Positions 22,218 through 36,869 of a stretch of DNA of 36,869 nt are shown here, one piece after another; the first letter of the stretch is position 1, and the number at the start of each line of letters is the position of its first letter. The notes under the pieces were generated by a model. The model searched no databases. It had not been told where the DNA came from and saw only the letters and a program-made list of their open reading frames with translations. The translations under genes were made by a program, and so were the position numbers. The stretch is from Candidatus Zymogenus saltonus (GTDB lineage Bacteria > Desulfobacterota > Zymogenia > Zymogenales > Zymogenaceae): contig JAFGIX010000082.1 of the NCBI GenBank assembly GCA_016929395.1, positions 1-36,869 on the forward strand, given 5' to 3'.

Positions 22218-22907
22218 ATGAGTTCGATTTTTGCAGAGCTGGTTAAAAACACCGGATTTGTCCCCGTGGTATGGCCCGTGAATCTTCGCACAGGGGCGAA
22301 TAACGGGGGTGTAATCTCCATGAAGGGATACGGTCGATGCTGCTTTTACATCGTGGTGGGCACCGTTGACGGCACTGTCGCGGTAACTCTCTACGAGGCA
22401 ACAAGCGTCGCCGGAGCCGGAGTGCAACAGCTCAGCCTTGACAAGATGTACACGACAGGCCAGAGGCTCCTGATCACGTCTCCGACCGGCGTATTTACGG
22501 TAGGCGAGACCGTCACAGGCGACGGTGGGGCGACTGGCGTGGTCGTTAAGGCGTCCCGTGACGATGTGCTCCTGCACACCAGGAATGCCACCGCATTCGT
22601 GGATGCAGAGACCATAACGGGCGGGACATCACTCTATACGGCCACCGCTAACGGGGCCGGACAGGACGAGGATATCTTGCTCGAAAAGGCAGTCGACTCC
22701 GATACCTTCACGATACCGGCGGTAAGCAACAGGACGTATGCCATCGAGGTGAGGGGTGAAGACCTGTCTGATGGATACGACTGTGTTCAGCTGAGACTCG
22801 CACAGGCCGGTGCAGGTTCATCGAGCATAGGTGTGGCGATCGCGATCCTGTACGAGCCGAACTTCCACCGCATCCCGATGGGTACGGGGATCTACGACGC
22901 GCCTTAA
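22218..22907 (+). CDS. Probable head decoration or minor capsid protein
   Basis: 229 aa from ATG 22218 (AGGAGG upstream), 12 bases after the capsid gene. The protein is beta-rich: CCFYIVVGTVDGTVAVTLYE, then FTVGETVTGDGGATGVVVKA and AVSNRTYAIEVRGEDLSDGY. Its position right after the major capsid gene and strand-rich make-up suggest a capsid surface or cement protein, inferred from context. No specific family is recognised. Confidence 0.7.
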   Translation: MSSIFAELVKNTGFVPVVWPVNLRTGANNGGVISMKGYGRCCFYIVVGTVDGTVAVTLYEATSVAGAGVQQLSLDKMYTTGQRLLITSPTGVFTVGETVTGDGGATGVVVKASRDDVLLHTRNATAFVDAETITGGTSLYTATANGAGQDEDILLEKAVDSDTFTIPAVSNRTYAIEVRGEDLSDGYDCVQLRLAQAGAGSSSIGVAIAILYEPNFHRIPMGTGIYDAP

Positions 22908-34863: not shown

Positions 34864-35349
34864 ATGGAATTGATGACAGCTAAAGATTGGGAAAATATCA
34901 AATATTTTTCTCCTGAAGAAAGGTGGGGCGATCCTCACAAGATGGAGCGGGAACTGATATTTCTCCTCGATGACCTTCGGGACATTTTTGAGTGTCCTTT
35001 CGTGATTCACTGCGGACTCGACCTTTACGGCCACAGTAAGGATTCCCGACATCACGTTCCGGTTAAAGACAGCGATGGCAATATTCTTTACCATTATGCG
35101 GATGCGGCGGATTTCCATATCGTTGGTATCGATTACAAAGACGCTGTGGATTTGATGACCGCTTTTATCGGCCCGCCACCCGGAGGGCTTGCGGTTGCAA
35201 ATAAAATTGGTCTCGGAATCTACCCTCACTGGTATGGCCCTGGATTTCATCTTGATACAAGAGGATCGAGGGCGAGATGGGGAGCGGTGGACAGAGGCGG
35301 TAAACAGGTATATGTGAGTTTCAAAGAGGCGTATGAGGCAATAAAGTAA
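34864..35349 (+). CDS. Endolysin, peptidase M15 family
   Basis: 161 aa from ATG 34864. The zinc site is seen in YHYADAADFHIVGID (His77, Asp83) and GPGFHLDTRGSRARW (His129), with SRHHVPVKDSDGN at 61-73, as in M15 (DD- or LD-endopeptidase) endolysins of the M15_3 type. There is no signal peptide, so it should need a holin to cross the membrane. It cuts peptide bonds in peptidoglycan. The flanking holin-like and small membrane genes fit a lysis cassette. Confidence 0.9.
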   Translation: MELMTAKDWENIKYFSPEERWGDPHKMERELIFLLDDLRDIFECPFVIHCGLDLYGHSKDSRHHVPVKDSDGNILYHYADAADFHIVGIDYKDAVDLMTAFIGPPPGGLAVANKIGLGIYPHWYGPGFHLDTRGSRARWGAVDRGGKQVYVSFKEAYEAIK

Positions 35350-35370
35350 ACCCGAACAAAGGAGTAAATT

Positions 35371-35541
35371 ATGACTTTAGCGAAATCAATTTTAATCACC
35401 CTGGCCGGAGTGGCGCCCGTAACTATATCCTCGCTGGCGTTTGGCGGATGGGGAACCTTTATAGTTGGGTTTCTTGTCTCGTGTTTTATAGGGGCGGGTT
35501 GTTATTTCCTGCCTATTTGGTGGCAAAAGATTTTTGGATAA
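35371..35541 (+). CDS. Small two-TM membrane protein, holin-like
   Basis: 56 aa from ATG 35371 behind AAAGGAG. Two hydrophobic segments (LAKSILITLAGVAPVTISSL and GTFIVGFLVSCFIGAGCYFL) are joined by a short Gly-rich turn. A tiny two-TM protein right after the endolysin is a good candidate for a pinholin or antiholin, but no family is recognised. Confidence 0.62.
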   Translation: MTLAKSILITLAGVAPVTISSLAFGGWGTFIVGFLVSCFIGAGCYFLPIWWQKIFG

Positions 35542-35545
35542 GAAT

Positions 35546-35608
35546 ATGGACAAGTGGGACATTAGGGTTAATCCCCGAACTTCGGAGGGGCGGGGCCGGA
35601 GAAAATAG
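35546..35608 (+). CDS. Possible 20-aa peptide
   Basis: ATG 35546 opens 20 residues (MDKWDIRVNPRTSEGRGRRK) ending TAG. There is no strong binding site (GGATAAGA only). It is recorded because it fills the start of a gene-free gap between lysis genes; likely not functional as a protein on its own. Confidence 0.2.
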   Translation: MDKWDIRVNPRTSEGRGRRK

Positions 35609-35610
35609 AT

Positions 35611-35679
35611 ATGTATACAGAAAAGCAAAAAAAAGATAAAAAAAAGAGTACAAAGAAAAATAAGAAAATTAAGGAGTAA
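35611..35679 (+). CDS. Possible 22-aa lysine-rich peptide
   Basis: ATG 35611, with GGAG nine bases upstream, opens a 22-residue frame that is mostly lysine (MYTEKQKKDKKKSTKKNKKI). It lies just before the structured RNA at 35691. The A-rich DNA could equally be an unpaired spacer or a protein-binding stretch. Confidence 0.25.
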   Translation: MYTEKQKKDKKKSTKKNKKIKE

Positions 35680-35690
35680 AGAAATAGGGG

Positions 35691-35853
35691 ACGCTGTTAG
35701 CAAATACCAAAATTATGGGTAAGAACAAGTGGGTGCGGCCAGCGGGTGCTGGACACTGTTAGAGCGGTATTTAACCGCCACTTGTGGATTAACAGCGTAT
35801 GACGTGTTTGGTGCATGGGACACGTCAAACAGTCGCAAGGGACGGGAGGCGAC
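35691..35853 (+). ncRNA. Multi-helix structured RNA in lysis region
   Basis: The largest gene-free gap (35542-35872) holds several perfect helices. ACGCTGTTA 35691-35699 pairs with TAACAGCGT 35790-35798 (9 bp). Nested inside are ACAAGTGG 35725-35732 with CCACTTGT 35778-35785 (8 bp), CCAGC/GCTGG 35739-35743 and 35748-35752 (loop GGGT), and GCGGT/ACCGC 35764-35768 and 35774-35778. Next come TGACGTGT/ACACGTCA 35800-35807 and 35820-35827 (8 bp) and GTCGC/GCGAC 35832-35836 and 35849-35853. CTGTTA also occurs at 35756-35761 and could compete for TAACAG. The RNA ends just before the AAGGAG of the next gene. No ORF is credible. Family unknown. Confidence 0.6.
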
Positions 35854-35872
35854 AAAGTAAAGGAGTAAATTA

Positions 35873-36139
35873 ATGTGGTCTAATGTAGGTGGTCGGAAGT
35901 TTACGGCATTTATCATTGTAGTAGCAGTTTACGTATTCTTTGGGATTCGGTCTATGAATTTTGCTATTGAGTCGTTTCCCTATCTTATATTTCTTTGCGT
36001 TGCTTTTTTCACAGCCAATGCTGGCAAAGACCTGATCATGGAGAAATTGAAAAATGGCAAAGCTGAAACGTATCGGCCTGATAGGGTGGGTAATCCTGAC
36101 AGGATTTCTCCTCCTGATGGTGTGGGTGAGGGGGAATAA
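35873..36139 (+). CDS. Two-TM membrane protein, holin-like
   Basis: 88 aa from ATG 35873 (AAAGGAG upstream), just after the structured RNA. Two membrane segments (FTAFIIVVAVYVFFGI and FPYLIFLCVAFFTAN) are followed by a charged tail (GKDLIMEKLKNGKAETYRPD). A GGRKF start and an N-A-G-K after the second helix occur in several phage holin-like proteins. Its end overlaps the next gene by 86 bases. Confidence 0.65.
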   Translation: MWSNVGGRKFTAFIIVVAVYVFFGIRSMNFAIESFPYLIFLCVAFFTANAGKDLIMEKLKNGKAETYRPDRVGNPDRISPPDGVGEGE

Positions 36140-36293
36140 AATCAACAGGCTGGAAAATGAACTTCTGCTCGAAAAAGTCAACGAGGGACAGAAGCAGATA
36201 ATTATCGAGTATATCCCCACAAAGATTAAGGAGATTGCCCCCGATGCGCCCGCAAAGGCTGAACTCGGAGACAAACTGTATGGAGGGAAGTAA
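36054..36293 (+). CDS. Inner-membrane spanin-like protein (i-spanin candidate)
   Basis: 79 aa from ATG 36054, nested in the end of the previous gene. An N-terminal membrane anchor (IGLIGWVILTGFLLLMVWV) with basic residues before it is followed by a periplasmic coiled coil (NKINRLENELLLEKVNEGQK). This is the layout of Rz-type i-spanins. The next gene, touching its stop, encodes a lipoprotein, as in Rz/Rz1 pairs. Function inferred from layout and position. Confidence 0.68.
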   Translation: MAKLKRIGLIGWVILTGFLLLMVWVRGNKINRLENELLLEKVNEGQKQIIIEYIPTKIKEIAPDAPAKAELGDKLYGGK

Positions 36294-36682
36294 TGAAAAA
36301 AATCATACTTTTAATTGTGGTCGTACTCGCGCTCGGTGGATGCGCCACCACCTCCCGACTTGTACATCTAAAGGCCCAGCCCCCCGTGGCTTCGCTCTTC
36401 CCAAATGAAGAGGACATCGCAAAGGTAATAGAGGAGATCAAAGCGAAACCGGCTACCTCCACTGGCGCCGTGAAGTGGAATCAGAAAACAGGAAAGTACG
36501 AAGTCACCCCCGAAGCGTGGGAGAAGGTGCTGAACGATAAGATTTATCTCATGGCGCTGAAGAAGAAGATAGAGGCGTTCGCAGAGAAATATGATCCTGA
36601 GACGTTGGGCGACGCATGGCGAAAAGACCTCGGGACATCGGTCATAACGATACTGTTGATGCTGGGAATTATGGTGTATTGA
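36293..36682 (+). CDS. Lipoprotein spanin with C-terminal hydrophobic segment
   Basis: 129 aa from ATG 36293, start touching the previous stop. The lipobox LALGGC (Cys17) follows a basic-hydrophobic signal, so the mature protein is a lipoprotein, probably in the outer membrane. The chain is helical through the middle (PNEEDIAKVIEEIKAKPATS, then KKKIEAFAEKYDP) and ends in VITILLMLGIMVY, a second hydrophobic stretch. N-terminal lipid and C-terminal membrane segment in about 130 residues is the layout of the single-protein (u-)spanin of phage T1. The i-spanin-like gene before it argues for a normal two-part spanin, so the C-terminal segment needs explaining. Confidence 0.72.
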   Translation: MKKIILLIVVVLALGGCATTSRLVHLKAQPPVASLFPNEEDIAKVIEEIKAKPATSTGAVKWNQKTGKYEVTPEAWEKVLNDKIYLMALKKKIEAFAEKYDPETLGDAWRKDLGTSVITILLMLGIMVY

Positions 36683-36814: not shown

Positions 36815-36859
36815 TTCGTAATCATCAGGTCGGGGGTTCAACTCCCCCCTCCGGCTCCA
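36815..36859 (+). other. Right attachment site: 3' part of tRNA-Thr (CGT)
   Basis: From the anticodon loop TTCGTAA (36815-36821, anticodon CGT) the sequence runs through the 3' anticodon strand TCATC, variable loop AGGTC, T arm GGGGG-TTCAACT-CCCCC and acceptor strand CTCCGGC-T-CCA, ending at 36859. The matching 5' strand GATGA is not in front (CTCAT instead) and no GCCGGAG acceptor start lies upstream. It is therefore a 3' fragment, not a whole tRNA gene. This is the footprint of a phage integrating at a tRNA 3' half: the core stays at both ends. 36860-36869 would be host flank. Confidence 0.82.
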
Positions 36860-36869
36860 GTGATTTCAA

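Follow-up and report, generated by a model that had tools for sequence, protein, structure and literature searches.

Positions 35691-35853 of the prophage sequence analysed here form a real, non-random folding element that carries no coding signal and lies in the lysis cassette. Our tentative explanation is that it may act in cis, as an intercistronic structured RNA in the polycistronic lysis mRNA of the prophage that would protect or insulate the holin-like gene. Of the explanations weighed below it is the best supported, followed in order by a functionless insertion, a trans-acting RNA and a DNA element, with a switch in last place. As a single sequence, the element is for now inseparable from a chance inverted-repeat-rich insertion, and we regard it as a candidate and not as a discovery.

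The lysis cassette of a tRNA-Thr-integrated prophage

The window, by which we mean the whole stretch of 36,869 nucleotides, is the entire contig C82 of a genome of 92 contigs and 3.76 Mb. It is a prophage integrated at tRNA-Thr in a relative of Ca. Zymogenaceae, and carries genes for a CII-like regulator, a Sak4-like protein and a DnaD-like helicase loader, together with terminase, portal, major head and tail proteins, after which comes the lysis cassette. The last 55 bases (36815-36869) recur exactly on contig C47, as the 3′ part of an intact tRNA-Thr(CGT) with the bases downstream of it, and the final 87 are found again at the start of contig C88, which identifies the right end of the window as an attachment site. 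A second, partial prophage is present in the same genome (L019, G000:C29, 3528-9218); it has related tail protein, endolysin, holin-like and spanin-like genes and is without the element. The parts of the cassette are as follows.

34864 to 35349, + strand: endolysin (PHROG 894, E 9e-6)
35371 to 35541, + strand: gene for a small membrane protein of 56 aa, before the element, unlike its positional counterpart in the sister prophage C29
35542 to 35690, + strand: unstructured, A-rich part of the gap (z -0.08)
35671 to 35680, + strand: AAGGAGTAAA, the second of three exact copies of a Shine-Dalgarno string, followed by ATA and no start codon
35873 to 36139, + strand: holin-like gene of 88 aa, after the element, with a WSNVGGRKF motif common to the related cassettes
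36054 to 36682, + strand: spanin-like pair of overlapping inner-membrane (36054-36293) and lipoprotein (36293-36682) genes

The lipoprotein signal of the spanin-like pair is weak and falls under the family cut-off. The element is flanked on both sides by lysis genes of the same strand, within the longest + strand stretch (233 bp) that has no ORF reaching 45 codons. Two tiny and very basic reading frames lie in the A-rich part, at 35546-35608 (20 aa, MDKWDIRVNPRTSEGRGRRK, beginning five bases past the stop of the 56-aa gene) and at 35611-35679 (22 aa, MYTEKQKKDKKKSTKKNKKIKE); neither has a PHROG match, and they are candidates only. The other two copies of AAGGAGTAAA stand before the membrane gene (35359-35368) and before the holin-like gene (35860-35869), so that the window has exactly three, all in the lysis cassette, and no other even when one mismatch is allowed. 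Both GC and GC3 are reduced from the endolysin to the holin-like gene (34864-36139), with GC3 at 0.40-0.47 vs 0.73 in the tail gene, which suggests that this stretch is an exchanged block.

Fold, chance and the two strands

All of the arms named in the sequence-only reading are present at their positions, and on the + strand they assemble into an overall fold of the form P1[P2 P3[P4 P5]] P6 P7, with a minimum free energy (MFE) of -57.0 kcal/mol. The fold of 35691-35853 is unaltered by adding flanks and was the same in all the contexts tried.

35691 to 35798, + strand: Domain I, in which P1 closes P2 and P3, and P3 encloses P4 and P5 (-37.7 kcal/mol; z -2.60 on the + strand, -4.99 on the - strand)
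35691-35699 with 35790-35798, + strand: P1, 9 bp
35705-35708 with 35718-35721, + strand: P2, weak
35725-35731 with 35779-35785, + strand: P3 as folded, 7-8 bp; as arms, 35725-35732 with 35778-35785 (8 bp)
35739-35743 with 35748-35752, + strand: P4, loop GGGU
35756 to 35761, + strand: second CTGTTA, proposed partner of TAACAG (35790-35795)
35764-35768 with 35774-35778, + strand: P5, loop AUUUA
35800 to 35827, + strand: P6 hairpin, 8 Watson-Crick pairs, 10 with G-U; arms in this region, 35797-35807 with 35820-35830, pair at 10 of 11 positions
35832 to 35853, + strand: P7 hairpin, 5 bp, with a purine-rich loop of 12 bases, AAGGGACGGGAG; the AAGGAG of the holin-like gene follows 6 bases downstream

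The suggestion that such a density of perfect arms is unlikely to arise by chance is borne out by counting. There are 3 exact inverted repeats of at least 8 bp vs 0.12 expected (reached in 0 of 2000 shuffles), and 8 of at least 6 bp vs 2.1 expected (p = 0.0005). None of 200 shuffles folds as well as the element on the + strand (z = -3.45), nor on the - strand (MFE -53.3, z = -5.02; again 0 of 200). In a scan of the whole window (668 folds, 25 shuffles each) no sampled stretch has a lower z than the element's -7.7 on the - strand, and on the + strand its -4.16 is about the minimum, the only comparable value there being at 22551, inside a coding gene. That segment, 22551-22713 within the gene at 22218-22907, folds strongly on both strands (z about -4.2); because it comes so close, a z near -4 is by itself no proof of function. 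The structure has a sharp edge, the 149 bases preceding the element being unremarkable at the z of -0.08 given above.

A conserved reading frame through the element had been named beforehand as evidence that would speak against a structured RNA, and no sign of coding was found. Codon usage in its six frames gives z of -1.15 to 0.42, like shuffled sequence; the neighbouring short genes score 2.1 to 6.0 on the same measure, and no convincing homologs turned up for a frame of 43 codons at 35729-35860. We also considered a decayed gene running from ATA at 35684 to TAA at 35860, a frame whose beginning is spaced from AAGGAG as a start codon would be and whose end falls on the next Shine-Dalgarno site. 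It was rejected on an in-frame stop and the lack of codon signal.

The pairing is nearly equal on the two strands, with 39 pairs common to both and very few G-U pairs (4 of 51 on the + strand, 1 of 45 on the - strand). Such near symmetry would suit a DNA element as well as an RNA, and it counts against a cis-acting RNA in that the + strand is not singled out as the molecule that acts. A DNA-level role, in which hairpins or protein-binding inverted repeats, some 1 kb away from the right attachment site, take part in packaging, replication or recombination, would fit these almost wholly Watson-Crick helices that fold on both strands, the z of -4.73 obtained when the element is folded with DNA parameters, and a - strand z that is the lowest in the window. 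We nevertheless consider it quite improbable: multi-branched nesting is atypical for a double-stranded binding site, and the element occurs once in the genome with no duplication of flanking bases around P1. The same single copy disposes of a dispersed repeat such as a MITE and, together with the flanks of P1, of a transposon-like element. An integron attC site was set aside by eye (wrong box order, no integrase seen). A retron was set aside too, no reverse transcriptase having been noticed among the part of the ORFs that was searched.

The alternative pairing and the ribosome-binding site of the holin-like gene

The sequence-only reading had proposed two exclusive folds, as in a switch, with TAACAG pairing with either of two copies of CTGTTA. 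The words themselves are where they were said to be (CTGTTA at 35694 and 35756, TAACAG at 35790), and there is a further partial partner, AACAG, at 35829. The energies, however, do not support a riboswitch-like or translational switch in which TAACAG swaps its partner. A fold forced to use the second CTGTTA reaches -44.7 vs -57.0 kcal/mol, which is 12.3 kcal/mol worse and leaves it with a probability of 0, and the main P1 pairs have ensemble probabilities of 0.96-1.0. When transcript prefixes are folded, P3-P5 have formed before TAACAG appears, and the alternative pairing is used in 0 of 8. Of the features expected of a riboswitch, then, the competing folds are far from similar in energy, and nothing resembles an expression platform, with no terminator-like site and a Shine-Dalgarno site that is mostly open and not sequestered. 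A switch is very improbable. A pseudoknot between 35755-35760 and 35828-35833, for which six pairs are possible, was likewise rejected; it competes with P4 and P7, and a nested fold made to include it is 13.3 kcal/mol worse.

The Shine-Dalgarno site of the holin-like gene is predicted to be unpaired with a probability of 0.86-0.91 in five of the six contexts that retain the element, vs 0.45 when the element is deleted. In the remaining context (35691-35975) accessibility is only 0.46, so that the insulating effect varies with the stretch that is folded. Pairing over a distance between 35558-35571 and the start region of the holin-like gene was rejected, 17.5% of shuffles being as good (p 0.175), as was a CsrA-controlled leader; ANGGA motifs lie at 35838 and 35860, but no CsrA was found in the genome.

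A consensus scan of the + strand, a weak test in this phylum, where host promoters may differ, found no sigma-70-like promoter at the ends of the element, and no terminator-like site at its ends or downstream. This slightly favours a part of the operon mRNA over an independent small RNA. A phage small RNA acting in trans, with its own promoter or cut from the lysis mRNA as an orphan structured RNA of the kind found in other prophages, would agree with the compact, self-contained fold that is identical in every context, and prophages do carry such RNAs, among them GOLLD, whose expression rises during phage lysis (PMC12286853). Besides the missing signals, its length of about 160 bases, far below the size of GOLLD, and the lack of an Rfam match argue against it, and we consider this explanation improbable.

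Homologs, related cassettes and the preferred explanation

It had been said that the element could not be matched to a named family, and this holds. No Rfam 15 covariance model matches in the window at gathering score, and at an E-value limit of 10 there is only a chance lncRNA match outside the element. A single-sequence covariance model of the element, R1, which misses distant relatives, matched nothing but the window itself when run on 395 genomes of the phylum; the host's own class has only four genomes in the collection. Another 63 genomes, from one further class, gave no match, nor did the related prophage loci or the IMG/VR loci fetched by DNA pattern or endolysin, a coverage of IMG/VR targeted by patterns and not a search of the whole collection with R1. 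Nucleotide searches of its own genome, the family, phages and plasmids gave no meaningful match, and the element occurs once in the 3.76 Mb. Queries with the endolysin, tail protein and holin-like protein in viral_contigs and genome_contigs yielded no homolog of the element. Neither did the P1 arms as a DNA pattern in viral_contigs, a result that counts exact P1 arms only and excludes the pattern with CTAACAGC for TTAACAGC.

Related prophages were located through the endolysin and the holin-like protein. In three of them (C29 of the same genome, G001 C72 and G002 C6) the start of the holin-like gene coincides with the end of the gene before it or is no more than a few bases away, and a fourth (G002 C27) has a gap of 116 bases whose folding is ordinary (z -1.13). 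Because the related cassettes either join the genes or fold ordinarily, the segment of about 330 bp is particular to this prophage among those seen.

These observations also bear on the possibility that the element is a functionless, inverted-repeat-rich insertion in a variable part of the lysis cassette, perhaps brought in by exchange at AAGGAGTAAA strings, with no role as RNA. It is a single copy without homologs, it is absent from the related cassettes, three exact AAGGAGTAAA copies bracket the gene slots, the neighbouring 56-aa membrane protein is likewise unrelated to its C29 counterpart, and codon scores and GC there are below those elsewhere. A duplicated end of the upstream membrane gene was rejected as a source (alignment p 0.36; only the AAGGAGTAAA string repeats). 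Perfect arms of 8-9 bp are, on the other hand, far denser than in shuffles, and their pairing should decay unless the insertion is young. We judge a functionless insertion unlikely.

What leads us to prefer a cis-acting element, tentatively, is the combination of a fold that is non-random and clearly bounded, the lack of coding signal, the lysis genes on the same strand, the lack of promoter-like or terminator-like sites at its + strand ends, the more open Shine-Dalgarno site in most contexts that retain it, and the gene-to-gene junctions of three relatives, an arrangement of coupled translation. The lack of any homolog in the searches above weighs against it. We infer that the element would be transcribed as part of the operon and would work as follows. 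The segment that includes it separates two small membrane genes that are adjacent in related cassettes, and the RNA of the element would form a stable domain, followed by a pair of hairpins, directly 5′ of the holin-like ribosome-binding site. Translation of the holin-like gene could thereby be uncoupled from that of the upstream genes while its Shine-Dalgarno site is kept free, and the mRNA might be protected or processed at the element, for example as an RNase III substrate or as an exonuclease barrier. The outcome would be a holin-like protein that is dosed separately.

Should the element prove to be transcribed and functional, lysis timing in phages of an almost unstudied group of bacteria would gain a layer at the RNA level, and a new RNA family could grow from it. 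That it represents an undescribed class of phage RNA of about 160 nt, to date seen in one prophage and involved in lysis as either a structured intercistronic element or a trans-acting RNA, is doubtful.

Several known systems offer comparisons. In the lambda S holin gene the sdi hairpin occupies the start region and decides which of two start codons is used. Both place RNA structure shortly ahead of the start codon of a holin; the element differs in that its predicted structure leaves the Shine-Dalgarno site free and only one start codon is evident. Long-distance pairing couples translation in MS2, which we compare since 35558-35571 can pair with the holin-like start; here, in contrast, the pairing is no better than in shuffles. 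Hammerhead ribozymes that flank prophage genes have been proposed to cleave long transcripts of the phage and so yield shorter mRNAs (PMC3088659). They too are structured RNAs between phage genes, but the element matches no Rfam family, hammerheads included, and has no hammerhead core by eye. GOLLD and ROOL differ in size, many GOLLD members exceeding 800 bases, and the element has no Rfam match and stands inside the lysis cassette; like it, they are structured RNAs of unknown function found in prophages and phages, often, in the case of GOLLD and ROOL, near tRNAs (PMC12286853).
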